From: Propionibacteriales bacterium
Lineage (GTDB): Bacteria > Actinomycetota > Actinomycetes > Propionibacteriales > Nocardioidaceae
Length of the DNA stretch: 64,000 nt
Direction: 5' to 3'
Assembly: GCA_026392455.1 (NCBI GenBank)
Contig: JAPLCB010000002.1
Location: 124,001-188,000, forward strand
Shown here: piece after piece, positions 38,477-57,872 of the stretch
How positions within the stretch are numbered: position 1 is the first letter of the stretch
Layout of the letters: each line of letters opens with the position of its first letter
The notes under the pieces: model-generated
What the model saw: the letters and a program-made list of their open reading frames with translations, nothing else
Database searches by the model: none
What the model was told of the DNA's origin: nothing
Position numbers and translations under genes: made by a program

Positions 38477-39217
38477 TCAGCTCATCCCGCCGTCGTGGGC
38501 CAGCACGCAGCCGGTGATCATCCGGGCAGCCGGGCTGGCCAGGTAGACGATCGAGGCAGCCAGCTCGTGCGGTGAGATCGCGCGTCCTGGCAGCATCATC
38601 ATCAGCCGGTCGGAGACCCGCGGGTCGAGGTCGTCGGGGTACTTCGCAGCAACCTCGGTGACGATCGGGGTGTCGACCGTGCCGGGGCAGATCGCGTTGA
38701 CCCGGATCCGCTCCGGGGCGAGCTCGAGGGCCAGCGAGCGGGTCATCTGGGTCAGTCCGCCCTTGGCGGCGGAGTACCCGACGGTGTAGCCCTGCGGGAC
38801 CCGGCCGGCGACCGAGGAGACGTTGACGATGTTGGCGTTGCGGGTGGCGCGCAGGTGCGGGAGTGCTTCCTGCATGACCATGAAGGGGCCCTTGAGGTCG
38901 ACCGCGTGGATCCGGTCCCACTCGTCGTCGGTGATGGTGTCGAAGCGACCGAACTGGACGATGCCGGCGACGTTCGCGACGACGTCGATCCGGCCGTGCT
39001 CGGCGCACTTGGCGATGGCGGCCTTCACCGACTCCCGGTTGCCGACGTTGCACTCGACGTACTCGACGCCGTCGGGGACGGTCGGGTGGATGTCGAGCCC
39101 GTAGACGATGTCGCCCAGGTCGCGGAACTGCTCGGCGGCGGCGAACCCGATGCCGGACGCGGCCCCGGTGATGACGACGACGCGGGGGGTACCGGTGCCG
39201 AGGGACGAGACGGTCAT
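38477..39217 (-). CDS. Short-chain dehydrogenase/reductase
   Basis: 246 residues, classical SDR: VVITGAASGIGFAAAEQF (cofactor), NVAGIVQFG, the catalytic Ser in NIVNVSSVAG, Tyr and Lys in GYSAAKGGLTQ. It ends in ITGCVLAHDGGMS. The substrate is a hydroxyl or ketone compound. A KstR-type palindrome lies 52 bases upstream of the start, suggesting a steroid or lipid context. Confidence 0.92.
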   Translation of the reverse strand: MTVSSLGTGTPRVVVITGAASGIGFAAAEQFRDLGDIVYGLDIHPTVPDGVEYVECNVGNRESVKAAIAKCAEHGRIDVVANVAGIVQFGRFDTITDDEWDRIHAVDLKGPFMVMQEALPHLRATRNANIVNVSSVAGRVPQGYTVGYSAAKGGLTQMTRSLALELAPERIRVNAICPGTVDTPIVTEVAAKYPDDLDPRVSDRLMMMLPGRAISPHELAASIVYLASPAARMITGCVLAHDGGMS

Positions 39218-39269: not shown

Positions 39270-39283
39270 TAGAACAGGTTCTA
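39270..39283. promoter_or_regulatory. KstR-like operator upstream of the SDR gene
   Basis: TAGAACAGGTTCTA (extended by one matching pair on each side to CTAG...CTAG). It fits the published KstR consensus TnnAACnnGTTnnA, a 14-bp palindrome bound by the TetR-family steroid-catabolism repressor. No kstR gene is present in the window. Confidence 0.55.
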
Positions 39284-39345: not shown

Positions 39346-40004
<659 letters not shown>

Positions 40005-40441: not shown

Positions 40442-41560
40442 TCAGCCCCGGCGAACACCCTTGTAGATCCCGCGCCACACGATCAACGGCTGCAGCCGCG
40501 ACCACGCCGGGAGCTTGAAGGAGCTCCCGGTCGGCGTGAACACCTCGAGCTTGTCGTCCTGCACACCGACGACCGATCCCCACCGGCGCGGGGACGGCGT
40601 GAAGGACTTCAGCTTTCGGCCGTCGAGTCCGGCCCGGATGTTGTGCGCCAGCATCCCGTCGGCCCGGCTCCGCGCGGAGTTGCGCAGCGGGTCGGTGGCG
40701 GCGATGTCGCCGATCGCGTAGACGCCCACGTGAGGAAGGCCAGCGGGGTCGACGACCCGGAGGTGCTCGTCGACCTTCACGAAACCCCCGTCGTCGAGGA
40801 CGTCGTCCGGGAGCCAGCTGCTGTTGGGGCGGACCCGACCGATGGTCCAGAGCACGGCGTCCGCGGAGACCGGCTCCTGACCGGTACTCCACGCGACGTC
40901 GCCGGCCGTGATCTCGTCGCACCCGAACCCGTCGGGAACGACGGCCCGGTGTCCTGGGTGCAGACCAACCCCGGCCTCGGTGAGCTGCCGGCCGATCGCG
41001 CTCCAGACCTTCCCGTGGTGCTGGGGCAGCGCCCGCTCACCGGGGAAGTAGAGGTCGACCTGCTTGTCCGGCCAGGTCCGCGCGATGTTCAGGGCACTGC
41101 TGACCGCGGCTGCGCCACCACCGATCACCACCACCTTCGCCGACGACGCGAGCCGGTCGTGGGTCGCACCCAGCGACTCCTCGATCTCGCTGACGCTCTG
41201 CAGCGCCGGCGAACGCCAGAACCCGTTCGACACCCCGGTAGCGATCACCAGGACGTCGTACGGCTCGGTCTGCTCCCGCCCACCGGCGTCGCGCACCGTG
41301 ACGTCCTTGGCCACCAGGTCGACCCCGAGCAGCTCGCCGTGCACCCGACGTACCCGGTCGAGCTTGCGGTACCGGTCGAAGGAGACCCAGTAGTCGCGGA
41401 CCCACTCGCGCGGGCGGGCCAGCCGCTGACCGAGCTCCTGACCGCTGAGCATGCCGGGCTTGCTGGAGATGCCGACGACGTCGGCGTGCTTCGACAGGTG
41501 GATCGCCACCAGCAGGCCGGTGTCGCCGAGCCCGGCGATGACGACGCGGGGACGACTCAC
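40442..41560 (-). CDS. FAD/NAD(P)-dependent oxidoreductase (FSP1/NDH-2-like)
   Basis: 372 residues of the pyridine nucleotide-disulfide oxidoreductase class without the redox disulfide. FAD-binding VVIAGLGDTGLLVAIHL, NAD(P)-binding KVVVIGGGAAAVSSALNIA, and the FAD-contacting GVYAIGDIAATD are present. It resembles AIFM2/FSP1 and type-II NADH dehydrogenases that reduce quinones. The GTG at 41560 overlaps the DUF1295 stop, so the two form one unit. Confidence 0.88.
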   Translation of the reverse strand: MSRPRVVIAGLGDTGLLVAIHLSKHADVVGISSKPGMLSGQELGQRLARPREWVRDYWVSFDRYRKLDRVRRVHGELLGVDLVAKDVTVRDAGGREQTEPYDVLVIATGVSNGFWRSPALQSVSEIEESLGATHDRLASSAKVVVIGGGAAAVSSALNIARTWPDKQVDLYFPGERALPQHHGKVWSAIGRQLTEAGVGLHPGHRAVVPDGFGCDEITAGDVAWSTGQEPVSADAVLWTIGRVRPNSSWLPDDVLDDGGFVKVDEHLRVVDPAGLPHVGVYAIGDIAATDPLRNSARSRADGMLAHNIRAGLDGRKLKSFTPSPRRWGSVVGVQDDKLEVFTPTGSSFKLPAWSRLQPLIVWRGIYKGVRRG

Positions 41561-42453
41561 GCAGACGCCTTCTTCGGCGGGCGCGGGAAGAACCGCGGCA
41601 CCCGGTCGATGACCGCCTGGTACGACGGCCGCCGTTCGAGGCTGCGCTTCTCCATCATCGGGATGCTGGCGCCGGCGAACATGGCGTACATCCCGAGGGC
41701 TCCGACGAAGACCCACCACCAGTCGTCGGGGGAGGCGGCGAGGCCGAAGAGCGCGAGCGAGAACCAGAAGCTGAACTCGCCGAAGTAGTTCGGGTGCCGC
41801 GACCAGCTCCACAGGCCGGAGTCCATCGCCTGTCCGGGCTGCTTGGTCGCCGCGAAACGGTACATCTGCAGGTCGGCCCAGAACTCCAGCACGACCGCGC
41901 CGAGACCAACCACGAGCGCCACGTAGTCGAGCCAGCCGACGTCCTCGCTGGCTCGGGTCAGGACGACGTACACCGGCAGCATCCCGGCGAAGACCTGGAG
42001 CGTCGGGAAGACGTGGATCCCCATCAGGTCGACCGCTGCCTCGGCCTTGCCGGCGCCGTCGCGGAGCATCGGGTAGCGCCAGTCCTCGTGGTGCAGGCCC
42101 GGGAACGCGTACATCCAGTTGCCGGTCAGCCGGATCGCCCAGACAAGGATCACCGTCATCACCAACCAGGCGCGTGGATCGCTCGCCTCCGTCCCGGACT
42201 CGATCCACCAGGCCAGCATCAGCAGCGGCGGCAGCACGCTCCAGTAGGCGTCGTAGAAGCTGGAGTTCCTGTGCAACCGGCTGGCGGCGAAGACGACCAG
42301 GGTTGCGATCAGGTCGGCGATGAGGCCGTCCAACCAGAGGTGCGCGGTGTCAGGCCCCCAGATGAACCAGGCCGCGCCTGCTCCGAACGCGAACACGTAG
42401 GAGAGGAAGACGCGGGTGATCGACTCGGTCTTGCTCATCGTCTGGGTGTCCAT
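41557..42453 (-). CDS. DUF1295 (steroid 5-alpha-reductase-like) membrane protein
   Basis: 298 residues with six to seven helices. FWADLQMYRFAATKQPG and LWSWSRHPNYFGEFSFWFSL are hallmarks of DUF1295, related to the C-terminal NADPH-binding region of 3-oxo-5-alpha-steroid 4-dehydrogenases. A steroid or lipid reductase is plausible. It overlaps the FAD oxidoreductase, which could supply electrons, and a KstR-like palindrome ends 17 bases upstream of its start. Confidence 0.88.
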   Translation of the reverse strand: MDTQTMSKTESITRVFLSYVFAFGAGAAWFIWGPDTAHLWLDGLIADLIATLVVFAASRLHRNSSFYDAYWSVLPPLLMLAWWIESGTEASDPRAWLVMTVILVWAIRLTGNWMYAFPGLHHEDWRYPMLRDGAGKAEAAVDLMGIHVFPTLQVFAGMLPVYVVLTRASEDVGWLDYVALVVGLGAVVLEFWADLQMYRFAATKQPGQAMDSGLWSWSRHPNYFGEFSFWFSLALFGLAASPDDWWWVFVGALGMYAMFAGASIPMMEKRSLERRPSYQAVIDRVPRFFPRPPKKASA

Positions 42454-42469
42454 GGGAGAAGACGGTACC

Positions 42470-42483
42470 TAGAACGTGTTCTA
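42470..42483. promoter_or_regulatory. KstR-like operator upstream of DUF1295
   Basis: TAGAACGTGTTCTA, a perfect 14-bp palindrome matching TnnAACnnGTTnnA, 17 bases before the DUF1295 start codon at a position expected for a repressor site. It shares arms with the site at 39270-39283. Confidence 0.6.
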
Positions 42484-42968: not shown

Positions 42969-43382
42969 CTACTTGTCCTCCGCGAAGGTCACTTCGACAC
43001 CGCCGACGAGGGTCGCGGCCAGGTTGTAGAGGAAGGCGCCCAAGGTGGCGATGGCCGTGATCAGGACGACGTCCGCGACCGCGACGATCATCGTGAAGCC
43101 GATCACCCGGGACGCGCCGAGGTACGTCTCGATGTCGAACGGGGTCCCGTTGCTGTCGCCGAGCGAGTCCTGCACGATCGAGTTGATCGAGTCCCACAGA
43201 CCAGCCGCCCCCAGGACGCCCCAGACGATCGCGACCGCGACCACGGTGACGATCGCGACCGCCACCGAGAGCAGGAACGACGCCTTCATCACCGACCACG
43301 GCTCCACCTGGACCAACCGGAGCCGGGCCTGGCGCACCTGTCGTACGGACTCGGTCGTGTCCTGCCCCAGGCTGGTGGCCAT
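42969..43382 (-). CDS. DUF3566 domain membrane protein
   Basis: 137 residues. Polar N terminus, then RLRLVQVEPWSVMKASFLLS, a long helix and a second helix (DVVLITAIATLGAFLYNLAA), ending in GGVEVTFAEDK, all DUF3566 hallmarks. Its ATG overlaps the gyrA stop by one base (TGATG). The family is fixed next to gyrA in actinomycetes; function unknown. Confidence 0.93.
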   Translation of the reverse strand: MATSLGQDTTESVRQVRQARLRLVQVEPWSVMKASFLLSVAVAIVTVVAVAIVWGVLGAAGLWDSINSIVQDSLGDSNGTPFDIETYLGASRVIGFTMIVAVADVVLITAIATLGAFLYNLAATLVGGVEVTFAEDK

Positions 43383-46081
43383 CAGGCCTCCTCGGTCTCG
43401 GCTGTGTCGGTCTCACCGTTCTCGGCAGTCGTGGTGCCGGCGGAAGCCTCGATTGTTGCATCCGTCGCCGCGCCGTCCGCCGGCTCGACGTCGCCGAGCT
43501 CGTCCTCGTCGTCCCCGACCTTCTCGACGCTGCGGGCCACCACAGCGACCGAGTCACCCTTCTTCGGGGTCACGAACTTCACGCCCATCGTCGAGCGACC
43601 GGTCGCCCGGAAGTCGGCGTTGATGGGGCTGCGGACGACCTGGCCGCCGGAGGTGATCGACAGGATCTCGTCGCCCTCGACCACGATGAACGCCCCGACG
43701 AGTCCGCCGCGGTCCTCGTTGGCCAACGACATCGCCTTGATACCGATGCCGCCGCGCGACTGGATCCGGTAGTCCGAGATCCGGGTTCGCTTCGCAAAGC
43801 CGCCGTCGGTGATCGTGAAGACGTACTGGACCTTGACCTCCTCGGCACTCTCGGCGCCCTCGGCGGCCACGGCACCTTCGTCGAGCGCCTCCTTGGCGAC
43901 CTCGTCGGCGCGGATCACCGACATCGACAGCACCGAGTCGCCCTCGCGGAACTTCATCCCCTGGACACCCGAGGTGGCCCGGCCCATCGGCCGCAGCTGG
44001 GAGTCGTCGGCCGGGAAGCGGATCGCCTGACCCTTGCGGGAGACCAGCAGGATGTGGTCCGCGGAGTCGACCAGCTCGGCGCCGATCAGCTCGTCGTCGT
44101 CCTCACGGAAGTTGATCGCGATGACACCGGCCTGACGCGGTGAGTTGTAGTCACCCAGGCGGGTCTTCTTGACCAGGCCGTTGCGGGTCGCGAGCACCAG
44201 GTACGGCGACTGCTCGTAGTCACGGATCGCCAGCACCTGGGCGATGTTCTCGTCCGGCTGGAAGCTCAGCAGCCCGGCGACGTGACCGCCCTTGGCGTCG
44301 CGCGACGCCTCCGGGAGGTTGTAGGCCTTGGTCCGGTAGACCCGGCCTGCGGTGGTGAAGAACAACAACCAGTGGTGGTTCGACGTGGAGATGAAGTGGT
44401 CCACCACGTCGTCGCCGCGCAGGGTCGCGCCGCGCACACCCTTGCCGCCCCGCTTCTGGGTCCGGTACTGGTCGGCCCGGGTCCGCTTGGCGTAGCCGCC
44501 GCGGGTGATGGTGACGACCAGCTCCTCGTCGGGGATCAGGTCTTCCATCGACAGGTCGCCGTCGGCCGCGATGATCTGGGTACGACGGTCGTCGCCGTAC
44601 TTGTCGACGATCGCGGCGAGCTCCTCGGAGATGATCGAGCGCTGCCGGGTGATGTTCGCGAGGATGTCGATGTAGTCGGCGATCTCCAGCTCGATCTCGG
44701 CCAGGTCGTCGATGATCCGCTGACGCTGCAGCGCGGCCAGCTGGCGCAGCTGCATGTCGAGGATTGCGTTGGCCTGGAGCTCGTCGATGTCGAGCAGCTC
44801 GATCAGGCCCTGGCGAGCGTCGTTCGCGTCCGGCGAGCTGCGGATGAGCGCGATCACCTCGTCGAGCATGTCGAGCGCCTTGACCAGGCCGCGCAGGATG
44901 TGGGCGCGCTCCTCGGCCTTGCGCAACCGGTACGTCGTCCGGCGCTGGATGACCTCGATCTGGTGGGCGACCCAGTTGGAGATGAACTGGTCGATGGTCA
45001 GCGTGCGCGGGACGCCGTCGACCAGGGCCAGCATGTTCGCGGAGAAGTTGGTCTGCAGCTCGGTGTGCTTGAGCAGGTTGTTCAGCACGACCCGGGCGAC
45101 CGCGTCGCGCTTGAGCACGACGACCAGACGCTGACCGGTCCGACCGGACGAGTCGTCACGGACGTCGGAGATGCCCTGGACCTTGCCGGAGTCCGCGAGC
45201 TCGGCGATCTTCAGCGCCAGGTTGTCCGGGTTCACCATGTACGGGAGCTCGGTGATGGACAGGCAGGTGCGGCCCTTGGCGTCCTCGTCGATCTCGATGA
45301 CCGCGCGCTGGGTCACCGATCCGCGACCGGTGCGGTAGGCCTGCTCGATGCCCTGGCGGCCCACGATCAGCGCGCCGTTGGGGAAGTCGGGTCCCTTGAT
45401 CCGCTCGATCAGCGCGTCCTGGAGCTCCTCGCGGGTGGCGTCCGGGTGCTCCAACGCCCACTGGGCGCCTTCGGCAACTTCGCGCAGGTTGTGCGGCGGG
45501 ATGTTGGTCGCCATCCCGACGGCGATGCCGGCGGAACCGTTGACCAGAAGGTTCGGGTAGCGCGCCGGGAGGACGGTCGGCTCCTCGGAGCGGCCGTCGT
45601 AGTTCGGCTGGAAGTTGACGGTCTCCTCGGTGATGTCGCGGACCATCTCCAGGGCCAGCGGCGCCATCCGGCACTCGGTGTACCGCATCGCCGCGGCGGA
45701 GTCGTTGCCCGGGGAACCGAAGTTGCCCTGCCCGTGGATCAGCGGCGCGCGCATCACCCACGGCTGGGCCAGCCGGACCAAGGTGTCGTAGATCGCGGTG
45801 TCACCGTGCGGGTGGTACTGACCCATCACGTCACCGACGACGCGCGAGCACTTGGAGAACCCGCGGTCGGGGCGGTAGCCGCCGTCGTACATCGCGTAGA
45901 GCACGCGCCGGTGAACCGGCTTCAGCCCGTCGCGTACGTCCGGCAGCGCGCGGCCGACGATGACCGCCATCGCGTAGTCGATGTAGGCGCGCTGCATCGA
46001 GGTCTGCAGCTCGATGGGCTCGATCCGGCCGCCGGGGCCCGGGCCCTCGGAGGCGGTGGCGTCGGTGGGGGTCTCAGTCAT
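43382..46081 (-). CDS. gyrA: DNA gyrase subunit A
   Basis: 899 residues. The breakage-reunion domain carries the catalytic Tyr in [10 protein letters not shown]; the quinolone-resistance region reads [14 protein letters not shown], with Thr at the position of E. coli Ser83 and Asp retained at 87. The C-terminal beta-pinwheel contains the GyrA box QRGGKGVRG and repeated VxxxTxxGxxxR blades. An acidic Glu/Ala/Thr tail of about 60 residues follows the last blade. Gyrase introduces negative supercoils with GyrB. Confidence 0.98.
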
Positions 46082-46103
46082 CAGTTCGTCTTTCGTCGTA
46101 CGA

Positions 46104-46145
46104 GGTTTCGAGACAGGCCGTGCCGGCCTTCCTCAACCAACAGGG
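46104..46145. repeat. REP-like element between gyrB and gyrA
   Basis: GGTTTCGAGACAGGCCGTGC...CCTCAACCAACAGG, a single diverged copy of the family seen at 8343-8522 and 38341-38462. It contains the inverted repeat GGCCGTGCCGGCC. It lies between gyrB and gyrA, so it must be transcribed if the two are one operon. Confidence 0.7.
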
Positions 46146-46148
46146 GGT

Positions 46149-48284
46149 TCAGATGTCGAGGAACCTGACGTCCTTGGCGTTGCGCTGGATGAAGGACCGA
46201 CGCAGCTCGACGTCCTCACCCATCAGCGTGGAGAAGACCTCGTCGGCCTGGGCCGCGTCGTCGAGGGTGACCTGCAGCATCAGACGCTGCTCCGGGTTCA
46301 TGGTGGTCTCCCACAGCTCCTCGGCGTTCATCTCACCGAGACCCTTGTACCGCTGGACCGGGTTCTCCTTGGGCAGCTTCTTGCCGGCGTCGAGACCGTG
46401 CGCCATCATCGCGTCGCGCTCGGAGTCGGAGTAGACGAACTCGTGCTCGGCGGGCTTGTTCCAGCGGAGCCGGTACAGCGGCGGCTGCGCCATGTAGACG
46501 TAGCCGTGCTCGATCAGCGGCTTCATGAACCGGAAGAGCAACGTCAGCAGCAGCGTGTTGATGTGGTGGCCGTCGACGTCGGCGTCGGCCATCAGGACAA
46601 CCTTGTGGTAGCGGAGCTTCTCGAGGTTGAACTCCTCGTGGATGCCGGTGCCGAGGGCCGAGATGATCGCCTGGACCTCGGTGTTGGCCAGCACCTTGTC
46701 GATGCGGGCCTTCTCGACGTTCAGGATCTTGCCGCGGATCGGGAGGATCGCCTGGACGCGAGGGTCGCGTCCCTGCCGCGCAGAACCGCCGGCCGAGTCG
46801 CCCTCGACGATGAAGACCTCGCACTCCTCGGGGTTGGTCGACTGGCAGTCGCTCAGCTTGCCCGGGAGTCCGCCACCGCCGAGCAGACCCTTGCGGTTGC
46901 GAGCGAGGTCACGGGCCTTGCGCGCGGCCATCCGTGCCTGCGCCGCAGCCTGGGACTTGCGGATGATCTCCTTTCCCTCGGCCGGGTTCTCCTCGAGCCA
47001 GGCACCGAGCTGGTCGTTGACGATCCGCTGCACGAAGCCCTTGGCCTCGGTGTTGCCGAGCTTCGTCTTGGTCTGACCCTCGAACTGGGGCTCCCCGAGC
47101 TTGATCGAGATGATCGCGGTCAGGCCCTCGCGGATGTCGTCGCCGGAGACCCGGTCCTCGCGCTTCTTGATCAGTCCCCACTCCTCGCCCCAGCTGTTGA
47201 CCAGGGTGGTGAGCGAGGCCCGGAAACCCTCCTCGTGGGTACCGCCCTCGTGGGTGTTGATCGTGTTCGCGAAGGTGTGCACCGACTCCTGGTACGAGGT
47301 GTTCCACTGCATCGCGAGCTCGAGCGACATGTGGTTCTCGGTGCCCTCGGGGGTCTCTGCCTCGAAGCTGATGATCGTCTGGTTGGCGACGACCTTGCGG
47401 CGGTTCAGGTGCTCGACGTAGTCGACCAGACCGCGGTCGTACTTGAAGCGGCGCTCGAGCACCCCGCTCTTCCCCGCGTCCTCAGCGCCCTCGCCGTTGA
47501 CCCCGGCGTCGTCGGCGTCGTCGGTCATCGGATCGACCTGGGCGTCGATGTCGTCGTCGCTCTGCATCGGGTCGTCGAGGATGTCCTCGAGCCCCTCGAC
47601 CGCCGGACGCTCGTCGCGGACGATGATCTCCAGGCCCTTGTTGAGGAAGGCCATCTCCCGGATCCGGTTGGTGATCGTCTCCAGGTTGTACGTCGTGGTC
47701 TCGAAGATGTCGGGGGACGCGTAGTAGGTGATCGTGGTCCCGGTCCGCTCGCCGGGCTCCATCGGCCTGACCTCGGCCAGGTCGGCATCGGGGACGCCGA
47801 CGGTGAAGGTCTGCCGCCAGAGGTGACCGCGGTTCTTGACCTCGGCGATGACCGTCGTCGACAACGCGTTGACCACCGAGATGCCGACGCCGTGCAGACC
47901 GCCGGAGACCTTGTAGCCGCCACCGCCGAACTTGCCGCCGGCGTGCAGCATCGTGAGCGCCATGGTGAGCGCCGAGATCCCCTCGGTCGGGTGGATGTCG
48001 GTGGGGATGCCGCGCCCGTTGTCCTCGACCCGGATGCCACCGTCGGCCTGGAGGGTCAGGATGATCTTGTCGCAGTGACCGGCCAGGGACTCGTCGACCG
48101 AGTTGTCGACGACCTCCCAGATCAGGTGGTGCAGACCGCGCTCACCGGTCGAGCCGATGTACATCCCGGGACGCTTGCGGACTGCTTCGAGACCTTCGAG
48201 GACCTGGATCGCGCTGGCGTCGTAGTTTCCTGCTTCGACGGCGGATCCGCTGGTTACGGTTTCAGCCTGTTCTGGCTCAGCCAC
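46149..48284 (-). CDS. gyrB: DNA gyrase subunit B
   Basis: About 711 residues. GHKL ATPase ([40 protein letters not shown]), transducer, and TOPRIM domain ([33 protein letters not shown]). An acidic insertion of about 35 residues (Asp/Glu-rich, near residue 245) falls in the transducer domain and is longer than in E. coli. I prefer the GTG at 48284, which follows AGAGG by five bases; the frame is open to a GTG at 48308. Confidence 0.97.
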
Positions 48285-48446
48285 GGTTTCCTCTTCACTT
48301 GGTGTCACGACACGAGAACGGCCGTCGAGCTCAGCGCCTGTTTCGCGCTACGAACTCTCGGACGGCCACACCTCAGCCTACCCGTCAGGGCCCTCAAATC
48401 ACGGGTACCTCGTTCGGAATGGAGGGATCTTGGTCGAAAATTGCCG

Positions 48447-48476
48447 CTCAGAAGCCCCAGAGCGGCCCTTTGGACC
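48447..48476 (-). terminator. Hairpin terminator downstream of dciA
   Basis: Read on the minus strand, a 7-bp stem GCCGCTC/GAGCGGC with a 10-base loop is followed by AATTTT, a short T-run. It is preceded by a second hairpin GGCCCT/AGGGCC (48474-48488). It ends the recF-dciA transcript before the gyrB promoter. Confidence 0.6.
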
Positions 48477-48565
48477 CTTTTCAGGGCCTCAGGTTAGGGA
48501 CGGTACGGCCGCGGAGCCCGCAGATCGGCTCTGACGCAATCCCGACGGTCCGGCGCAGGCGGTGG

Positions 48566-49096
48566 TCAGCCCCAGGTGTCCCGGGGTCCACGGCCCTTGA
48601 CCCGCAACCGTCCCGAGGTCCACTTCGGGACGTGCGGACCGAGTACGTCGATGACCTCGATGGTGCCGTCGCCCAGCTCCTCGTTGAGCCGTCGGACCAC
48701 GTTGGCGGCGAGCATCTTCATCTGGGTCGCCCAGGCAGTCGAGTCGGTGCGGACGACCAGGCGTCCCTCCGAGTACGACTCCGGGGTCACGTGGTCGGCG
48801 ACCTCCCGGCCGACGATGGCACCCCACCGGGTGAAGACCCCGTGCACCCGGAGCTCGGTCTGCCACCCCTGCTCGGTGACGAACCGACCCAGCGACGAGT
48901 CCAGCGTCTGCGGATCACGGTCGTCGGGGTGCGCTGAGCTCGCCTTGGGAAGAATCCTGCGCGCAGGCTTCCCCTTGCGGCGCAGGGGTCCGGTCTTCCC
49001 GGCCAGCCCGCGCGCGATGCTGCGAGCCAGGTCCAGGCCGGTCTCGTCGTGGTTCTCGGCACGGTCGCCGTCCGGTGTCGTCTCCTCGTCAGGCAT
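48566..49096 (-). CDS. DciA/DUF721 family protein
   Basis: 176 residues. A disordered charged N terminus precedes the DUF721 domain ([39 protein letters not shown]). DciA loads or recruits the replicative helicase DnaB in bacteria lacking DnaC; the actinobacterial relation is established by homology. The start overlaps the recF stop by 8 bases. Confidence 0.9.
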
Positions 49097-50216
49097 CGAG
49101 GGTCACCTCGCCCCCGGCCACGATGAATCTCCGCCCCCGCAGCTGGTCGGGGATGTCGTCGGCCACGGCGGCCGTGATCAGGACCTGCTCGGCGTCCGCG
49201 ACCAGCTCAGCGAGCTGGGACCGTCTCCCAGAATCAAGCTCAGCGAAAACGTCGTCCAGGATCAGCACCGGGTCGTCTCCCTCGGCCCTCAAGAGGTCGT
49301 AGGACGCCAGTCTGAGGCCCAGGGCGAACGACCAGGACTCACCGTGGCTCGCGTAGCCCTTGACCGGAAGGTCGCCGAGCGAGAACAGGACGTCGTCCCG
49401 GTGCGGTCCGACCAGGGTGAGCGCTCGCTCGAACTCGTCGGTCCGTCGCCGCAGGAGCTCGGCCAGGATCTGGTCCTCGAGTGCCACGTCACCGCTGAGC
49501 TCGAAGCTCGGTCGGTAGACCAGGACCGCGTCGTCGCGGTTCGCCCCCCGGGCGACTGCCTCGTAGGCCTTGCCGATCAGCGGGGTGAGGTTGTCGATCA
49601 GCTCGATCCGACGGCGGATGATCTCGGCTCCCAGCTCGGCGACGCGGGAGTCCCAGACCGCGAGGGTCGAGACCAGGGTCTCGTCGCTCTCCCGGGCGCG
49701 CCGGTTCCCCCGGGCCGTCTTGAGCAGTGAGTTGCGTTGCTTGAGCACCCGCTCGTAGTCGGCCCTGATCCCCGCGAAGCGGGGCGAGATCTGCACCAGC
49801 AGGTCGTCCATGAAACGACGGCGCTCGGACGGATCACCCTTGACCAGGGACAGGTCCTCGGGGGAGAACACCACGGTGCGGACCAGGCCGAGGAGCTCCT
49901 TGGCCCGCGGCAGCGGGGATTTGTTGATCCGGGCTCGGTTCGACTTCCCCGGATTGATCTCGATCTCCAGGACCGCCCGCCGGTCGTCCCGGACGACCGC
50001 CGCACGGACGATCGCCTGGGTGGCACCCTGGCGGACCATCGGGGCATCCGAGGAGACCCGGTGCGACGACAGGCTCGAGAGGTAGTCGATCGCCTCGACC
50101 AGGTTGGTCTTTCCCTGACCGTTGCGCCCCACGAAGGCCGTCACGCCCGGACCGATCTCGACCTCGACCGACGGATAGGAACGGAAGTCGTGCAGCGACA
50201 GGTGGGCGACGTACAC
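49089..50216 (-). CDS. recF: DNA replication/repair protein RecF
   Basis: 375 residues. An SMC-like ATPase: [20 protein letters not shown] (Walker A), the ABC signature region ending [15 protein letters not shown], and Walker [15 protein letters not shown]. It loads RecA at gaps with RecO and RecR. It follows gnd by two bases and overlaps dciA, forming gnd-recF-dciA in one unit. Confidence 0.97.
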
Positions 50217-50218
50217 GG

Positions 50219-51127
50219 TTAGCTCTCGGGCGTGACGTCCCCGCCCGGAGGCGGCTCGGTATGGAGGGCGTGCCCACCGAACTGGTTGCGCATCGCGGCG
50301 ATCGCCTTCATCGCCGGAGCGTCGTCCTGGCGAGAGACGAACCGCGCGTAGAGCGCGGCAGTGATCGCCGGCGTCGCGACCGCGTTCTCGATCCCCGCCT
50401 CCACCGTCCAGCGGCCCTCGCCGGAGTCGTCGGCGTAACCGCGGATTCCTTCGAGGTTCGGCTTCTCGTCGAGTGCTGCCACCAGCAGGTCCAGCAACCA
50501 GGACCGGATGACGGTCCCTTCCTTCCAGGAACGGAAGACCTCCGTCACGTTCTCGACCAGGTCGACGGTCTCCAGCAGCTCCCAGCCCTCGGCGTACGAC
50601 TGCATGATCGCGTACTCGATGCCGTTGTGAACCATCTTGGAGAAGTGCCCCGAGCCCACCTTGCCGGCGTGGACCCAGCCGTAGTCGCCCTCGGGCTTGA
50701 GGGTGTCGAAGACCGGTTGCACCTTGGCGATGTCGTCGGCAGTGCCGCCGGCCATCAGGGCGTAGCCGTTCTGAAGACCCCAGACCCCACCGGAGACCCC
50801 GCAGTCGACGAAGCCGATGCCTTGGGGGGCGAGCAGCTCAGCGTGCCGGATGTCTTCGGTCCACCGCGAGTTGCCTCCGTCGACGATGAGGTCGCCGTCG
50901 CCCAGGAGCTCGCCGAGAGCGAGTACGGTCTCGTCGGTCGGTACGCCGGCGGGCACCATCACCCAGACGACCTTGGGACTCGGGAGCTGCGCGACCATGT
51001 CCTCGAGGCTGGTCGAGTCACTGATCTCCTGGTTGCGGTCGTAACCGACGACGGTGTGTCCACCGTTGCGCAGCCGGGTGCGCATGTTGCCGCCCATCTT
51101 GCCGAGTCCGACGAGTCCGAGGTGCAT
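50219..51127 (-). CDS. gnd: 6-phosphogluconate dehydrogenase, decarboxylating (short, YqeC/GntZ type)
   Basis: 302 residues, shorter than the 470-residue E. coli form. The NAD(P) site is [19 protein letters not shown], with the substrate motif [13 protein letters not shown] and catalytic Lys/Asn in [15 protein letters not shown]. It oxidises 6-phosphogluconate to ribulose 5-phosphate and CO2. Placement between dnaN and recF is a common actinobacterial arrangement. Confidence 0.95.
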
Positions 51128-51166
51128 GCGCTGGGCCCTTCTTCGAGGATCAGGTCTGCGGAAGGA

Positions 51167-52330
51167 TCAGGACAACAGGCGGCGAGGCATCAACAGGTAC
51201 TTGAAGGTGGCAGCGGTATCCGCGCTGTTCGCGTCGAGCGAGTCCACTCCCGAGAGTACGACCGGCTTCGCCGATGTGGTGAAGGCCAGCTCGACGAACT
51301 TCGTCTCCAGGGCCGACAGTCCGTCGAGCAGGAACTGCGGGTTGAACCCAGTGGTGAGGTCGTCGCCGGTGATGGTGGCCTGGATCGCCTCGCTGGCCAT
51401 CGCCTCCTCGCCGGATCCGGCGTCGAGGGTGAGCGCGCCGTCCTTGAAGGAGAGCTGGACGGCGGTGTTCCGCTCGGCGACCAGGGCGACTCGCTTGACC
51501 GCGTCCATGAACTCCTCGCGGCTGACCACGGCCAGGGTCAGGTGCTCGCTGGGGAACAGCGACCGGACCTTCGGGAACTCGCCGTCGAGGAGGCGGGTCG
51601 TCGTACGACGGATACCGCCGCCGGCCGATCCCTCGAAACCGATGATTCCTTCGCCGTTGCCCGAGCTGGACAGCGCGATCGAGATCTCGCTCCCGCCGGT
51701 CAGTGACTTGGCGGTGTCCGCGAGAACCTTGGCCGGGACCAGGGCGGCCGCCGAGATGTCCGGCGTACCGGGCTGCCACTCGAGCTCGCGCTGGGAGAGC
51801 CGGAACCGGTCGGTCGCGAGCATCGAGATCGACGAACCGTCCAGCTCGAGGCGAACGCCGGTCAGGACCGGGAGCATGTCGTCGCGACCAGCCGCGGTGA
51901 CGGCCTGGGCGACAGCGTCTGCGAAGTCCTTGCTGCTGACCTTGCCCTTGGACTCGGGCATCGCCGGCAGGGACGGGTAGTCCTCGACGGGCATCGTCTG
52001 CAGGCTGAACCTGGCCGAACCACAGGTCAGGGTGACCTTGGCACCGTCGATCTGCATCTCGACCGGCTTGTTCGGCAGGCTGCGGCAGATGTCGGCGAGC
52101 AGGCGGCCGGACACCAGGGCTCGTCCCTCGATGGAGACGTCGGCGTTCAGCGTTGCTCGCGCGGAAGTCTCGTAGTCGAAGGTCGACAGCTGGAGCCCGT
52201 CCGCCCCGTCGATGGCGCCGGCCTCGATGAGGAGGCCGGCCAGCACGGGTGCACTCGGACGCAGGGGGAGAGCGCGGGCCGTCCAGGCGACGGCGTCAGC
52301 GAGAACATCGCGCTCGACACGGAACTTCAC
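51167..52330 (-). CDS. dnaN: DNA polymerase III sliding clamp beta subunit
   Basis: 387 residues, three clamp domains. It opens MKFRVERDVLADAVAWTARAL; DNMLPVLTGVRLE-type (here DDMLPVLTGVRLELDG) and the C-terminal LMPRRLLS variant of the usual LMPMRL tail are visible. It forms a ring that tethers the replicase. It lies directly after the origin gap downstream of dnaA. Confidence 0.97.
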   Translation of the reverse strand: MKFRVERDVLADAVAWTARALPLRPSAPVLAGLLIEAGAIDGADGLQLSTFDYETSARATLNADVSIEGRALVSGRLLADICRSLPNKPVEMQIDGAKVTLTCGSARFSLQTMPVEDYPSLPAMPESKGKVSSKDFADAVAQAVTAAGRDDMLPVLTGVRLELDGSSISMLATDRFRLSQRELEWQPGTPDISAAALVPAKVLADTAKSLTGGSEISIALSSSGNGEGIIGFEGSAGGGIRRTTTRLLDGEFPKVRSLFPSEHLTLAVVSREEFMDAVKRVALVAERNTAVQLSFKDGALTLDAGSGEEAMASEAIQATITGDDLTTGFNPQFLLDGLSALETKFVELAFTTSAKPVVLSGVDSLDANSADTAATFKYLLMPRRLLS

Positions 52331-52688
52331 GGGTGTTTCCTCCTGCGGTTCTGCCTCAGCGTGTTCGAGGCCTCATGCCTTGGGACTGGGCATCCTGCCA
52401 CGCTGCGGTCCGGTCTGGGTGGTTGTCCCCACCCGGGGACGTTTCCGGTTGTTGCGCGGCGAAGGATGAATTACTAGATCTAGTCGTCGTAGTAGGGCCG
52501 GTGGATTCTGTGGAGAACTCATGAAACCGCAGGTCACCGACACAATTTTGTGATTCCGAGGCTGTGGAGCACCGACTCGGAAACAACAGGTTCCTGTGGT
52601 TCGCGATTCGGGTTGTGCACCGAGATGTCTGTTTGTCCACAGTCCTCCCCTGCTTCGTCCACGGGAATTCACCCGGGGAACCACAGGG
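52331..52688. other. Probable replication origin (oriC) between dnaA and dnaN
   Basis: A 358-base non-coding gap. One perfect actinobacterial DnaA box TTGTCCACA lies at 52633-52641. Near matches are TTGTCCCCA (52423-52431) and, on the minus strand, TTCTCCACA (52509-52517) and TGCTCCACA (52563-52571). A lower-GC stretch with the palindrome CTAGATCTAG (near 52473-52482) may be part of the unwinding element. The number of recognisable boxes is low compared with Streptomyces. Confidence 0.8.
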
Positions 52689-54197
52689 TCAGGACTGCTT
52701 GGCCTGCTGCTTGATCCGCATGGTGAGCTCGTTGACGGTCTTGTAGACGGTCTGGCGTTCGGCCATCTCCTTGCGGATCCGTCGGTCAGCGTTCATGACG
52801 GTCGTGTGGTCCCGGCCGCCGAACTGGACGCCGATCTTCGGCAGGGACAGCTCGGTCAGCTCGCGGCAGAGGTACATCGCGATCTGGCGGGCCGTCACCA
52901 GCGCCCGGGTCCGGCTGGGTCCGCAGAGGTCCTCGATGCTGAAGGAGTGGTACGACGCGGTCTGGGCGATGATCAGGCCTGCGGTGACCTGAGGCTCGCC
53001 ACCTTCGGGGATGAGGTCCTTCAGCACGATCTCCGCCAGGGTCATGTCGACCTCCTGGTGGTTGATGCTGGCGAACGCGGTGACACGGATCAGGGCGCCT
53101 TCGAGCTCGCGGATGTTCGTCTGGATCCGACTGGCGATGAACTCCAGCACGTCCGGGGGCGCGTGCAGCCGGTCTGCTGCTGCCTTCTTCCGAAGGATGG
53201 CGATCCGGGTCTCGAGGTCGGGCGGCTGGACGTCGGTGAGCAGGCCCCACTCGAAGCGGTTGCGCAACCGGTCCTCGAGCTGGGTCAGGCGCTTGGGCGG
53301 CCGGTCCGAGCTGATCACGATCTGCTTGTTCGCGTTGTGCAGCGTGTTGAAGGTGTGGAAGAACTCTTCCTGGGTCTGCTGCTTGCCTTCCAAGAACTGG
53401 ATGTCGTCGATCAGCAGCACGTCCACGTCGCGGTACCGGCGCTGGAGAGCCGCGGTGTTGGCGTCCTTGATCGCGTTGATGACGTCGTTGGTGAAGGCCT
53501 CCGACGTGACGTACCTGATCTTCGCCCCGGTGTAGAGGCTTCGTACGTAGTGACCGATCGCGTGCAGCAGGTGGGTCTTGCCGAGTCCCGAGTCGCCGTA
53601 GACCAGGAGCGGGTTGTACGCCTTGCCCGGTGCTTCGGCCACGGCGACCGCGGCGGCGTGGGCGAACCGGTTGGACGAGCCGATGACGAAGGTCTCGAAG
53701 GTGTAGCGCGGGTTCAGCGGGCTGTCCGGGATCCCGGTACTCAGCGAGGTGCTTTGGATATTTGTCGATAAAGCGTTTTGCTGATTAAACGATGTGTCTT
53801 TGTATGGTTGCTGGTTGAGCGCAGTCGGGGGCCCGAAGCCGGCGGGCGCGGTGTTGTCGGTTTCCGCGGTATCGGGGTTCGACAGCGCGTCGGCCAGGGG
53901 GAGGTTCAGCGAGCCGTCGTTGGCCGGCAGGGTCTCGTCGACACTGACCGCGATCCGGATGGGTCGCCCGAGGGTGTCGCTGAGGGCGTCCTCCAGGCGG
54001 GTCCGTAACCGGCCCTCGAGCTGGGTGCGGGTGAACTCGTTGGGAACCGCGATCACCGCGGTCGACTCGGCGAGCATCACCGGCTTGCTGGACGCGAGCC
54101 ACGCACGTTGGTTGGGGGCCAGACTGTCCAAGATTGCCGGCCAGAGTGCGTCCAGCTCCCGACCCGTAGGTCCGTTGCTGCCTGATGCGGAATCCAC
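52689..54197 (-). CDS. dnaA: Chromosomal replication initiator DnaA
   Basis: About 502 residues. Domain I (about 10-90, LAPNQRAWLASSKPVMLAES), a variable Gln/Asn/Thr-rich domain II, AAA+ domain III with Walker A GDSGLGKTHLLHAIG and Walker B VLLIDDIQFLEGK, and domain IV with the DNA-binding signature GGRDHTTVMNADRRI. I prefer the GTG at 54197; the frame is open to 54248, but that stretch overlaps a DnaA box at 54241-54249 and lacks homology. Neither start has an ideal ribosome site. Confidence 0.96.
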   Translation of the reverse strand: MDSASGSNGPTGRELDALWPAILDSLAPNQRAWLASSKPVMLAESTAVIAVPNEFTRTQLEGRLRTRLEDALSDTLGRPIRIAVSVDETLPANDGSLNLPLADALSNPDTAETDNTAPAGFGPPTALNQQPYKDTSFNQQNALSTNIQSTSLSTGIPDSPLNPRYTFETFVIGSSNRFAHAAAVAVAEAPGKAYNPLLVYGDSGLGKTHLLHAIGHYVRSLYTGAKIRYVTSEAFTNDVINAIKDANTAALQRRYRDVDVLLIDDIQFLEGKQQTQEEFFHTFNTLHNANKQIVISSDRPPKRLTQLEDRLRNRFEWGLLTDVQPPDLETRIAILRKKAAADRLHAPPDVLEFIASRIQTNIRELEGALIRVTAFASINHQEVDMTLAEIVLKDLIPEGGEPQVTAGLIIAQTASYHSFSIEDLCGPSRTRALVTARQIAMYLCRELTELSLPKIGVQFGGRDHTTVMNADRRIRKEMAERQTVYKTVNELTMRIKQQAKQS

Positions 54198-54240
54198 GTA
54201 CGTTTCTCGCTCCCTCGTCCTGGTTGTCCGATCCACACCT

Positions 54241-54362
54241 TTGTCCACAGGTTGTGCAGGGTGCGCCAGCGGGAACTCGAGCGGTTGTTTTCGCGTTTCT
54301 CAGGCGGGTCGGAACCAGGACGCTATCCCGGCAGGTCCGGCAGGATCAACCGGTTGTCCACA
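54241..54362. promoter_or_regulatory. DnaA boxes upstream of dnaA
   Basis: Two perfect TTGTCCACA boxes at 54241-54249 and 54354-54362 lie in the 475-base interval between the divergent dnaA and rpmH genes. They probably serve autoregulation of dnaA and may contribute to the origin. The rest of the interval holds the two promoters; no gene is supported. Confidence 0.75.
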
Positions 54363-54672
54363 GGATTCGGAGATTCCACGGCGTGTCGCTGTCGAGATGG
54401 CGACGAGGAGGGGGAGCATCAGTTCTTTTGCCGGTGGGAACCCCGGGGTTCGCAGCGGCGAATTGACCGTGCGTTGAGGTCGCACGTACCGTTGGCAGGT
54501 CGAGACCGGTTCGACCGGTGCCGCATGTCCACGACCGGGCCACCTTCTGGTGGTCCTCGCGCGGGCGAGCGGTGCCAGTTGTTCTTCCTGTATGACTGGC
54601 GACCTCGTGTCGTGCGACCCGGTCTTGGACAGGTCCCACCTGGGACTCCCTACAACGCGCGTGGAGATATTC

Positions 54673-54810
54673 GTGAGCAAGCGTACTTACCAGCCGAACA
54701 ACCGTCGTCGTCACAAGGTGCACGGTTTCCGTCTCCGGATGCGTACCCGTGCGGGTCGCGCCATCCTGTCCGCTCGTCGCCGTAAGGGCCGGAACGACCT
54801 CGCAGTCTGA
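54673..54810 (+). CDS. rpmH: Ribosomal protein bL34
   Basis: 45 residues, highly basic: [19 protein letters not shown] followed by [21 protein letters not shown] start with GGAG upstream. It opens the plus-strand cluster of the origin region. Confidence 0.98.
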
Positions 54811-54825
54811 GGCCCGCGGCCTGAT

Positions 54826-55167
54826 GTGCTTGCCTCAAGCAACCGCCTGACCGACGGGGCTGAATTCCGTCAGGTCGTCAGGCGAGGACGACGATCCGGT
54901 AGCGGGCTGATCGTCCTGCACGTCGTGGCGCCGAATGTCGACAAAGCAACAAGTCTCCCGCCTCGTGTGGGGTTCGTCGTTGCCAAGTCGGTCGGCCCGG
55001 CTGTGATCCGGAATCGTGTGAAGCGACGTCTGCGCCATCTGATGCGGGAGCGGGTTTCCTTGCTTCCCGGCGGGAGCCTGCTCGTGATCAGGGCACTACC
55101 GGCGTCAGCCGGGGCCACGAGCCGGGATCTCGCGGCCGAGCTCGACCGTTGTCTAGGTCGTGGGTGA
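54826..55167 (+). CDS. rnpA: Ribonuclease P protein component
   Basis: 113 residues. The basic protein partner of RNase P RNA in tRNA 5' maturation. The RNR motif region [20 protein letters not shown] is clear, and [16 protein letters not shown] is the usual N-terminal segment. GTG start, 15 bases after rpmH; it overlaps yidD by 8 bases. Confidence 0.96.
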
Positions 55168-55504
55168 GGTGCGGTCGAGGGTGAAGTCTCCGTTGAAGCT
55201 GGTTCTGATCGGGCTCCTGAAGGCGTACCGCTTTGCCATCAGTCCGCTCTACGGCCAGGTCTGCCGGTACCACCCGACCTGCTCCGCCTACGCGCTGGAG
55301 GCAGTCACCGTCCACGGCGGCATCAAGGGCAGCTGGCTCGCGGTACGCCGGATCGGTCGCTGTCACCCGTGGGCGGCCGGCGGTTACGACCCTGTCCCGG
55401 TGGCCAGGTTTGCCTCGGGGGCGAAGACTGAGAGCGCAGCACCGGATCCGAACACCAGTAGCCAGCAGCAGCTGGACCCCGTGAACCTGACTCAAGGAGT
55501 CTGA
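55160..55504 (+). CDS. yidD: Membrane protein insertion efficiency factor YidD
   Basis: 114 residues. [20 protein letters not shown] then [14 protein letters not shown] with three Cys, and [17 protein letters not shown] are the family hallmarks. The C-terminal 30 residues are polar. Starts at 55169 or 55181 are also possible; homologues usually begin closer to the latter. It acts with YidC at the inner membrane. Confidence 0.95.
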
Positions 55505-56503
55505 GTGGAATTCCTCGGCCAAATCGGCAGCTTCATCATGACGCCGCTGTACTACGCGGTGTCGGCGGTCCTGGTTGCCTGGCACGAGCTCTGGGGCTCC
55601 GTCTTCGGTCCCGAGTCCGGGGTCTCCTGGGCGCTCTCGATCATCGGGCTCACCCTGGTCATCCGGGCGCTGCTGATCCCGCTGTTCGTGAAGCAGATCA
55701 AGTCGAGCCGGAACATGCAGCTGCTGCAGCCCAAGGTGAAGGAGCTGCAGAAGAAGTACGGCCACGACCGCGAGCGCCTGACCCAGGAGACGATGGCGCT
55801 CTACAAGGACACCGGCACCAACCCGTTCTCGTCGTGCCTTCCCCTGATCGTCCAGATGCCGATCTTCCTCGCCCTCTTCCGCCTGATCGACCAGGCCGCG
55901 AAGAAGGGCAACGGTCACGGGTTCCTCAGCGACGAGCGAGCGATTCAGCTGAAGGAAGCGAAGCTCTTCGGCGGCAAGATCGCGTCGACGTTCCTCAAGG
56001 CTGACACCACCACGGTGCAGGTGATCGCGATCGTCCTGGTGATCGCCATGACGGCCACGACGTTCCTCACCCAGCGTCAGCTGATGAGCAAGAACATGCC
56101 CGACGACGCGCTGACCGGTCCCTACGCGCAGCAGCAGAAGCTGCTGCTGTACGTGCTGCCGTTGGTGTTCGCCGTCGGCGGCATCGCGTTCCCGATCGGT
56201 GTGCTCCTGTACTGGACCACGTCGAACCTGTGGACGATGGGCCAGCAGTTCTACGTCATCCGCAACAACCCGGCCCCCAACACCGAGGCCTTCCGGGCCA
56301 AGGAGAAGCGCGACGCCGAGAAGGCGAAGGCCAAGGGCCTGCCGACCGCGTCGGGTGTCACGGTCGTGGAGGACGTCGTCGAGGAGCGCCGACCGGCAGC
56401 CCGGCAGCAGCCCAAGAAGCAGACCCGCCAGCAGCGCCGGACCCAGGCGCCCAAGAACCCATCGCCGTCGAGCGATAGCACCGATCAGGGAGAAGTGAAT
56501 TGA
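55505..56503 (+). CDS. yidC: Membrane protein insertase YidC
   Basis: 332 residues. Five helices, with the positively charged groove residue in SWALSIIGLTLVIRALLIPL, the cytoplasmic hairpin (KVKELQKKYGHDRERL), and SSCLPLIVQMPIFLALF. The C-terminal tail (about 265-332) is very basic and low-complexity, as in ribosome-binding YidC of actinomycetes. GTG start directly after the yidD stop. Confidence 0.96.
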   Translation: MEFLGQIGSFIMTPLYYAVSAVLVAWHELWGSVFGPESGVSWALSIIGLTLVIRALLIPLFVKQIKSSRNMQLLQPKVKELQKKYGHDRERLTQETMALYKDTGTNPFSSCLPLIVQMPIFLALFRLIDQAAKKGNGHGFLSDERAIQLKEAKLFGGKIASTFLKADTTTVQVIAIVLVIAMTATTFLTQRQLMSKNMPDDALTGPYAQQQKLLLYVLPLVFAVGGIAFPIGVLLYWTTSNLWTMGQQFYVIRNNPAPNTEAFRAKEKRDAEKAKAKGLPTASGVTVVEDVVEERRPAARQQPKKQTRQQRRTQAPKNPSPSSDSTDQGEVN

Positions 56504-57063
56504 GCGAGACAACCGAGACCGAGACCGTCGTCGACGACGTGATCGAGTCGGACGAGAACAGCACCACCAGCGATCCCGAGACGCAGGGAGCCGAACGTCC
56601 GTCCCGCACCAAGCGGCTCGAGCAGGAGGGCGAGATCGCAGCGGACTACCTCGAGGAACTGCTGGAGATCGCCGATCTCGACGGGGACCTCGACATGGAT
56701 GTGGAGGGCGACCGAGCGACCGTCTCCATCGTCGGTGCGAACCTGCCCCAGCTGGTCGGGGACAACGGTGAGGTGCTCGAGGCGCTCCAGGAGCTGACTC
56801 GTCTTGCTGTCTACCGTGAGACCGGCGAACGCTCTCGTCTGATGCTCGACGTCTCGGGGCACCGGGCCGAGCGGCGGACCGAGCTGGAAGCTCTCGCGGC
56901 AACGGTGGTGGCGCAGGTCCAGGAGTCTGGTGAACCTGTGTCCCTGGACCCGATGTCGCCGTTCGAGCGCAAGGTCGTCCACGACGCTGTCGCTGACGCT
57001 GGCCTGAAGTCGGAGTCGGATGGTGTTGAACCCCGTCGGTTCGTGGTGGTCCTCCCGGCGTGA
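56500..57063 (+). CDS. jag: Jag/KhpB RNA-binding protein (KH-R3H)
   Basis: 187 residues. Acidic N terminus, a KH domain (about 50-110; IVGANLPQLVGDNGEVLEAL) and an R3H domain (SPFERKVVHDAVADAGLKSE). The start is a TTG overlapping the yidC stop (TTGA), with AGGGAGAAG upstream; no ATG or GTG in frame fits. It is an RNA-binding partner linked to wall growth in Gram-positive bacteria. Confidence 0.92.
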   Translation: MSETTETETVVDDVIESDENSTTSDPETQGAERPSRTKRLEQEGEIAADYLEELLEIADLDGDLDMDVEGDRATVSIVGANLPQLVGDNGEVLEALQELTRLAVYRETGERSRLMLDVSGHRAERRTELEALAATVVAQVQESGEPVSLDPMSPFERKVVHDAVADAGLKSESDGVEPRRFVVVLPA

Positions 57064-57704
57064 GTGATTCGGTTTCACGTGAAACACCCTCTGTGCCGGA
57101 TGTGGCACAGAGGGTGTTTTCCGATGCGCTCCCCCTGGCCTCGTCCTACGCAGATCTTCTGGCGACCGACGGAATCGTCCGCGGTCTCATCGGACCGCGC
57201 GAGGTACCCCGCCTGTGGGACCGGCATCTCCTCAACTGTGCGGTTGTGACCGACGCTGTCCCTCAGGGGGCCAGCGTCGCTGACATCGGTTCAGGTGCGG
57301 GTCTGCCGGGACTGGTGATGGCAATCCGCCGGCCGGATGTCCACGTGACCCTGATCGAACCCCTGCTCCGGCGGACCTCGTTCCTGGAGGAAGTCGTCGG
57401 AGTGCTGGAGCTCAAGAATGTCCGGATCAGGCGAGGACGGGCGGAAGAACTCCACGGGGTCGCCACGTTCGACGTCGTCACGTCTCGGGCCGTGGCTCCG
57501 CTGGACAGGCTGTCACGGTGGTCTTTGCCGCTGGTCAGGTCTGGCGGCTTGTTCCTCGCCATGAAAGGCTCGTCCGCAGAGGACGAGGTCCAGGCCGCCC
57601 GAACCGCCATCGTCAAGGGTGGGGGACTGTTTCTCGACGTCCTCGAGCTGGGGGGCGAATTCCTGGACCCGCCCGTCAGGGTCGTCAAGATCGCCAAGAA
57701 GTAG
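57060..57704 (+). CDS. rsmG: 16S rRNA (guanine-N7)-methyltransferase
   Basis: 214 residues. SAM-binding fold with VADIGSGAGLPGLVMAIRRP, and WDRHLLNCA and VTSRAVAPLDRL. It methylates G527 of 16S rRNA (E. coli numbering). The GTG start overlaps the jag stop. A parS site lies inside the first codons, encoding VSRETP. Confidence 0.95.
   Translation: MSDSVSRETPSVPDVAQRVFSDALPLASSYADLLATDGIVRGLIGPREVPRLWDRHLLNCAVVTDAVPQGASVADIGSGAGLPGLVMAIRRPDVHVTLIEPLLRRTSFLEEVVGVLELKNVRIRRGRAEELHGVATFDVVTSRAVAPLDRLSRWSLPLVRSGGLFLAMKGSSAEDEVQAARTAIVKGGGLFLDVLELGGEFLDPPVRVVKIAKK
57071..57086. promoter_or_regulatory. parS centromere site inside rsmG
   Basis: GGTTTCACGTGAAACA, a 16-bp sequence with a perfect 14-bp palindromic core, identical to the conserved bacterial parS bound by ParB except for the first base (G for T). 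Confidence 0.9.
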
Positions 57705-57764
57705 GTCGTCCGCACCCGTCTGGACCCGCAATTCCAGGCACCTGTGTCTCATCGGTCGACGAAG

Positions 57765-57827: not shown

Positions 57828-57838
57828 CACAAATGGTC

Positions 57839-57854: not shown

Positions 57855-57872
57855 AGGTCGTAGGAGCACAGC

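Follow-up and report, generated by a model that had tools for sequence, protein, structure and literature searches.

A DUF1295/flavoprotein gene pair behind a KstR-type operator as a predicted, lineage-dependent member of the sterol regulon

Introduction

The stretch of DNA analysed here, 64 kb in length and henceforth called the window, carries a perfect KstR-type palindrome just in front of a gene for a membrane protein of the DUF1295 family, which in turn overlaps a flavoprotein gene. Does this pair belong to the KstR regulon and, if so, what could an uncharacterised membrane protein and its neighbour do there? In mycobacteria, KstR is released by CoA thioesters of sterol side-chain acids, according to the accessible text of PMC1995591 and of the review PMC6678751. 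In the open-access literature we found no study of a DUF1295 protein in sterol catabolism, nor of such a pair in the KstR regulon; the accessible part of PMC7532137 holds no description of the pair or its regulation, and the string "DUF" does not occur in the accessible main text of two transcriptome papers on Nocardioides simplex (PMC7807495, PMC7593942). Judged by this literature, the regulon is a known one and the pair a newly predicted member of it. Its interest lies in the several separate genomic lines that link sterol catabolism in bacteria to an FSP1-like flavoprotein and to a domain family that is uncharacterised; they make the pair a candidate, open to direct testing, for a sterol-reducing activity that is as yet unassigned. 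Enzymes of this kind would be relevant to the industrial production of steroids from phytosterols and to what becomes of sterols in soil.

Results

The operator and the genes that follow it

The palindrome at 42470-42483 on the minus strand (TAGAACGTGTTCTA; minus-strand reading TAGAACACGTTCTA) is an exact inverted repeat, TAGAAC-N2-GTTCTA, separated by 16 nt from the ATG (42453) of a 298-aa polytopic membrane protein of the DUF1295 family (PF06966; Pfam 1.3e-42), whose gene spans 41557-42453 on the minus strand. It is followed on the same strand by a gene with a GTG start (40442-41560) that overlaps the DUF1295 stop by 4 nt and encodes a 372-aa FSP1/NDH-2-like oxidoreductase of the FAD- and NAD(P)H-type. 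The initial annotation had described both the perfect palindrome directly upstream and the overlap of the two genes, and was right on both counts; only its spacing of 17 bases has to be amended to the 16 measured here. The repeat also exceeds chance expectation: the window has two copies of TAGAACNNGTTCTA, where 200 first-order shuffles average 0.0, and three of TNNAACNNGTTNNA, where 0.10 are expected; genome-wide the latter reaches 52 copies against 15 for a reversed-pattern control. The operator is thus confirmed as a real, non-random feature.

Orthologous DUF1295 loci were compared in two sets that have about seven genomes in common: a family set (L027-L056), made of the best 30 of 38 orthologues and covering 170 bp upstream to 40 bp into the match, and a named set (L057-L136), made of the best 80 of at least 587 places and covering 250 bp upstream to 60 bp into the match. 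An operator was called in these footprints at up to two core mismatches. Starting two bases downstream of the window operator, the hexamer TACCGT (42462-42467, minus strand) fits the -10-like pattern TANNNT and is predicted to be the promoter -10 of a near-leaderless mRNA. Of the 20 family loci with a site, 18 have a TANNNT hexamer starting 1-2 nt past the operator, compared to 11 of 6000 random positions; among the named loci with a site the figure is 11 of 26, and none of the 13 mycobacterial loci in this group shows it. At the Nocardioidaceae family loci with a site, an ATG or GTG is usually found 13-16 nt past the operator, a geometry consistent with a repressor sitting over a near-leaderless promoter.

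Absent from the initial annotation is a second perfect KstR-type operator on the minus strand (39270-39283; TAGAACCTGTTCTA on that strand), which lies between a Phd-type antitoxin gene and a gene for an SDR-family dehydrogenase (38477-39217, minus strand), 52 nt upstream of the latter. This SDR is the second predicted KstR target in the window: of 30 family loci, the window among them, 24 have an operator with at most two core mismatches within 200 bp, and KstR is encoded in 34 of the 35 genomes carrying the SDR. A Phd/PIN-type toxin-antitoxin pair, encoded at 39355-40004 on the opposite strand, separates the DUF1295 pair from the SDR gene. On the other side, the translations from 43382 to 59818 resemble what we take to be gyrA, gyrB, recF, dnaN, dnaA and parAB, which would place the DUF1295 pair close to the chromosome origin, with tRNA-Ala and tRNA-Ile next to it. 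A search of a plasmid collection returned one distant DUF1295 match (39.5%, Persicobacter).

The KstR regulon of the source genome

The source genome (3.55 Mb) encodes within its steroid-gene cluster, at L008:9699-10358, a TetR protein that matches a solved KstR chain (phmmer 2.7e-58), presumably the one from M. tuberculosis, and that scores 269.3 bits on the NCBIfam KstR model, slightly below the curated cut-off of 280. No exact-pattern operator was seen upstream of kstR itself in L008. Operators are present upstream of the genes for HsaA (625 bits), FadD8 and an Rv3520c-type LLM protein, and between those for KstD (887 bits) and a 2-keto-4-pentenoate-hydratase-like protein. A further operator falls at the 5' end of the called CYP125 ORF (4.5e-159), at most 38 bases before the stretch that matches solved CYP125, so that the true CYP125 start is probably downstream of the operator. 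MCE-domain matches number 37, and six of these adjoin the steroid cluster, at C3:559-565 kb. Based on the KstR orthologue, the operators at steroid genes and these MCE matches, the source organism is very probably a sterol degrader, as far as its genome can tell. The arrangement is like that of the mycobacterial KstR regulon described in the accessible text of PMC1995591: in both, the operator is TAGAAC-N2-GTTCTA within TnnAACnnGTTnnA and has a promoter-like hexamer beside it, and the source genome likewise has a KstR orthologue and core steroid genes that carry this motif.

Among 50 of the 52 genomic copies, we inspected the sequence around 31 that have a strong half-site; some of these sites lie inside called ORFs, and not all are promoter-like. 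Four perfect KstR-type sites (L015:7290-7303, L018:6813-6826, L020:6634-6647 and L023:6202-6215) are situated at or before other genes, which are candidates for further regulon members.

Conservation across orthologues

The operator was found at 20 of the 30 family DUF1295 loci, window included, and at 26 of the 80 named loci (the best 80 of at least 587); in the controls for the named set it turned up in 2 of 1600 Markov windows and in 3 of 1043 windows taken elsewhere from these loci. The 26 comprise Nocardioides (10), Marmoricola, Aeromicrobium, Mycobacterium/Mycolicibacterium (13) and one record named Nocardia jejuensis. The flavoprotein gene adjoins DUF1295 on the same strand, with a gap of at most 111 nt, in 59 of these best 80 named loci, and the operator is present at 25 of 59 paired loci versus one of 21 unpaired; at the single unpaired locus with an operator (L067) the sequence ends right after DUF1295. 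Within the family, the flavoprotein was detected in 36 genomes, 35 of which have the DUF1295 orthologue, and three genomes have the orthologue with no detected flavoprotein.

No operator within two core mismatches precedes the other 54 of the 80 named orthologues, 34 of which are still paired with the flavoprotein gene; the 54 include loci of further mycobacteria and Nocardioides, those of the sampled Gordonia, Dietzia, Rhodococcus and Williamsia, and all the proteobacterial ones. The conservation of the motif before orthologues, which the initial annotation had proposed to check, is therefore upheld for the 20 family and 26 named loci and fails for these 54. Among the 34 paired loci, one (L076) has an exact site 308 bp upstream, two (L112 and L118) have doubtful two-mismatch matches 1.8-2.2 kb upstream, and L131 has a loose pattern only; a search for KstR2-like sites in the 300 bp upstream found none at any of the 34. 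At L089 and L099, both from Gordonia, the gene directly upstream is of the LLM type, like the one that is under the operator in the source genome, and no KstR site with up to two mismatches occurs within 3.2 kb. Three Nocardioides orthologues with no KstR site (L042, L060, L081) carry at the same place a perfect 18-nt palindrome, ACCGGACA-N2-TGTCCGGT, which at L042 is the sole exact copy in that genome (G072), and which may represent an operator swap to another regulator.

Co-occurrence with sterol-degradation genes

The absence of the operator before so many named orthologues suits a reading of the pair as a general lipid or quinone-reducing unit, merely co-regulated by KstR in some lineages and with no direct steroid substrate, and so do the FSP1/NDH-2-like nature of the partner and the control by KstR of other lipid genes as well (PMC1995591, accessible text). 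The distribution of the pair in the family, however, argues for a closer bond with sterols. DUF1295 matches at E 1e-20 were obtained in 74 of 197 family genomes, and we took as orthologues those in the 38 genomes at 178 bits or more, a chosen split, with the 46 genomes having weaker matches (up to 108 bits) forming the paralogue set; paralogues beyond E 1e-20, including the source genome's own, fall outside it. KstR, HsaA and CYP125 are all present in the 38 genomes with an orthologue (38/38), against a background of 82, 63 and 64, respectively, in the 197. Among KstR genomes, the orthologue is found in 38 of 62 with HsaA compared to none of 20 lacking HsaA. The nesting of the orthologue within HsaA/CYP125 genomes is thus strict, with its significance overstated by the relatedness of the genomes. 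Proximity points the same way, as in Aeromicrobium (genus g19) seven genomes have the orthologue and in five of these (L031, L032, L034, L036 and L039) the pair is divergent from hsaA, with two KstR-type sites in the 107-131 bp between them (L070 is the same genome as L032 and was counted once); in the other two (G129 and G135) hsaA is on the same contig about 50-76 kb away. In light of these data we think it rather unlikely that the pair is such a general unit.

That the pair belongs to the KstR sterol regulon, as the initial annotation had put forward, is well supported as a prediction from genome sequences and appears to be lineage-dependent: a KstR orthologue, the same motif at steroid genes, sites before orthologues and complete co-occurrence all bear on it. 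Less of the suggestion that operator and protein family point to steroids independently can be retained; the operator, together with the KstR orthologue and the steroid genes under the same motif, does so, and for the DUF1295 family by itself this is not supported, given that the paralogue of about 30% identity, found at E 1e-20 in 46 genomes of which 17 have KstR, shows no association. The unit is present in 38 of the 63 HsaA-bearing family genomes and is in this sense accessory, which makes it more likely to widen the substrate range or to handle a side product than to perform a core step. That it is accessory among genomes with CYP125 hints at a task connected with the variety of sterols or with redox balance.

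Fold and family of the DUF1295 protein

The model of the DUF1295 protein (pLDDT 92) consists of about eight long helices. Foldseek returned nothing below E 0.001, and the fold is claimed on the basis of VIA-align, where the top match was the delta-14 sterol reductase 4quv, named MaSR1 in the accessible text of PMC7815742 (Z 15.6, rmsd 4.5, 252 residues, 14% identity). After it came PbSRD5A (7c83, Z 12.6), Ma-ICMT (4a2n, Z 12.0), a plant motor-complex subunit (8xku_G, Z 11.9), human SRD5A2 (7bw1, Z 10.7) and ICMT again at 10.6 (5vg9) and 9.8, followed by a gap to 7.7; in helical proteins, Z values below about 13 may reflect no more than a common arrangement of helices. Because reductases and methyltransferases have the same fold, the fold cannot choose between them. 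A PDB search with the DUF1295 sequence alone gave no match, and a profile search of the PDB gave only a weak ICMT stretch (E 0.086). For family comparisons we relied on an alignment of 34 DUF1295 members (A2), made of the window protein plus 33 of 80 chosen for clean starts or diversity; two other alignments built on the same criteria hold the window protein plus 14 of 29 relatives (A1) or 29 of 59 (A3).

The best structural match brings up a sterol reductase of the delta-7, delta-14, delta-22 or delta-24 type, which would convert ergosterol, stigmasterol or sterols of that kind into substrates of the common pathway. Such an enzyme would agree with a match to the delta-14 reductase that is both the best and the longest, and with an accessory distribution confined, in the family, to CYP125 genomes. 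A common fold, however, shows no function, and similarity to the ERG4_ERG24 family (PF01222) touches only six of the 34 members, at best 0.01, the window protein not being among them. We consider this reading less likely than not.

A 5-alpha-reductase, which the initial annotation had in mind when it called the protein related to that family, would use NADPH to reduce the delta-4 bond of cholestenone or androstenedione. The intermediates of the sterol pathway are delta-4 3-ketosteroids, which counts for this activity, as does the fold that the protein has in common with PbSRD5A and human SRD5A2. A profile of bacterial SRD5A proteins (A4) was built from 10 of 20 loci, leaving out weak, partial or broken ones and L188, which lacks the motif sought; these 10 proteins match PbSRD5A at 1.1e-90. 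Against this profile, hhalign gave a probability of 82% over 66 columns that cover TM5-TM6 only, and paired D194 with D163, and N222, Y223 and E226 with N192, Y193 and E196 of PbSRD5A. These four residues of PbSRD5A are NADPH-site contacts (PMC7815742, accessible text), and their DUF1295 counterparts are invariant in 34 of 34 members. The counterparts of SRD5A N159 and R170, on the other hand, are not N and not R; the alignment reached neither TM1-TM4 nor TM7; the M-E-x-P and H-Y-x-x-R segments, which are conserved among the bacterial SRD5A proteins, did not align, and the catalytic Q-E-Y motif was not recovered. An invariant acidic residue, D47, is found in helix 39-60, and its equivalence to the Q-E-Y motif is only a guess. 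R270, R274 and Y278 were also considered by spacing as counterparts of SRD5A TM7 residues, and were dropped since the profile alignment stops short of TM7. Similarity to Steroid_dh (PF02544) is weak and limited to 16 of 34 members (best 1.3e-4), with no match for the window protein at E 1, and the delta-14 sterol reductase fits the model better than PbSRD5A does. A true 3-oxo-steroid 5-alpha-reductase is therefore unlikely, and we do not file the protein under that name.

The remaining superfamily members to weigh are methyltransferases of the ICMT/PEMT type, acting on a lipid or a steroid acid. Similarity to the ICMT Pfam family (PF04140) extends to all 34 members (best 1.4e-5) and to PEMT in 26 of 34 (best 3.7e-4), and is in both cases no worse than that to Steroid_dh; in addition to the fold, a RHPxY stretch is common to DUF1295 and ICMT. 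The window protein nevertheless scores 20.8 bits, below the ICMT cut-off of 24, and N222 and E226, which match SRD5A, are S and W in the single ICMT aligned. We regard a methyltransferase as very unlikely. Judging from the model and these residues, the DUF1295 protein is more probably an NADPH-dependent reductase of the sterol/steroid-reductase superfamily.

The flavoprotein partner

The flavoprotein was modelled (pLDDT 90) as a two-domain FAD/NAD(P)H fold that fits FSP1 best (Z 36.0), with NDH-2 and sulfide:quinone oxidoreductases at Z of about 29-30; a profile search also found FSP1, at 1.5e-25. The model fits FSP1/AIFM2 and the type II NADH dehydrogenases over nearly the full length, identity to FSP1 being 21-23%, and the protein may couple the oxidation of NAD(P)H to a quinone. 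It has a single cysteine, and hence no redox disulfide. The initial annotation saw in it the electron supplier of the reductase. The transfer of electrons to the DUF1295 protein is possible but unsupported, as the partner is of the FSP1/NDH-2 kind and PbSRD5A takes NADPH directly (PMC7815742, accessible text), and we do not maintain this role.

Discussion

We consider it rather probable, taking the computed features as a whole, that the pair is an accessory, sterol-induced membrane reductase and NAD(P)H dehydrogenase under KstR. In such a scheme, KstR would bind the palindrome just upstream of the -10 region and, by inference, block the near-leaderless two-gene mRNA; sterol-derived CoA thioesters, by analogy to mycobacteria, would release it and turn the pair on together with the core pathway. 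The DUF1295 membrane protein would then most likely bind NADPH and reduce a C=C bond of a sterol or steroid intermediate, and the FSP1/NDH-2-like flavoprotein would oxidise NAD(P)H, with either a quinone or the reductase's own substrate pool as the probable electron acceptor.

A bolder version of this scheme can be put forward, in which the clade's DUF1295 proteins make up a new bacterial enzyme class that reduces sterol double bonds, forming with the FSP1-like flavoprotein a two-component membrane system switched by KstR and devoted to sterols with extra double bonds in the ring or side chain. This proposal is speculative and, in our opinion, rather improbable; if it were true, sterol-degrading actinobacteria could use sterols with such extra double bonds.

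Two odd records were met among the named loci. In the one named Nocardia jejuensis (L059) the DUF1295 orthologue has 76% identity with the window protein, and a metagenome-assembled genome named Bifidobacterium breve (L088) holds the DUF1295/flavoprotein pair at 61%; either transfer or mislabelled contigs could account for them. Outside the actinobacteria, the gammaproteobacterium Stenotrophobium (L126, 5001-8090) has a DUF1295 gene 52-53% identical, with no flavoprotein gene, near an SDR-like gene and a gene for a Rieske-type protein related to 3-ketosteroid 9-alpha-hydroxylase (1.2e-34).
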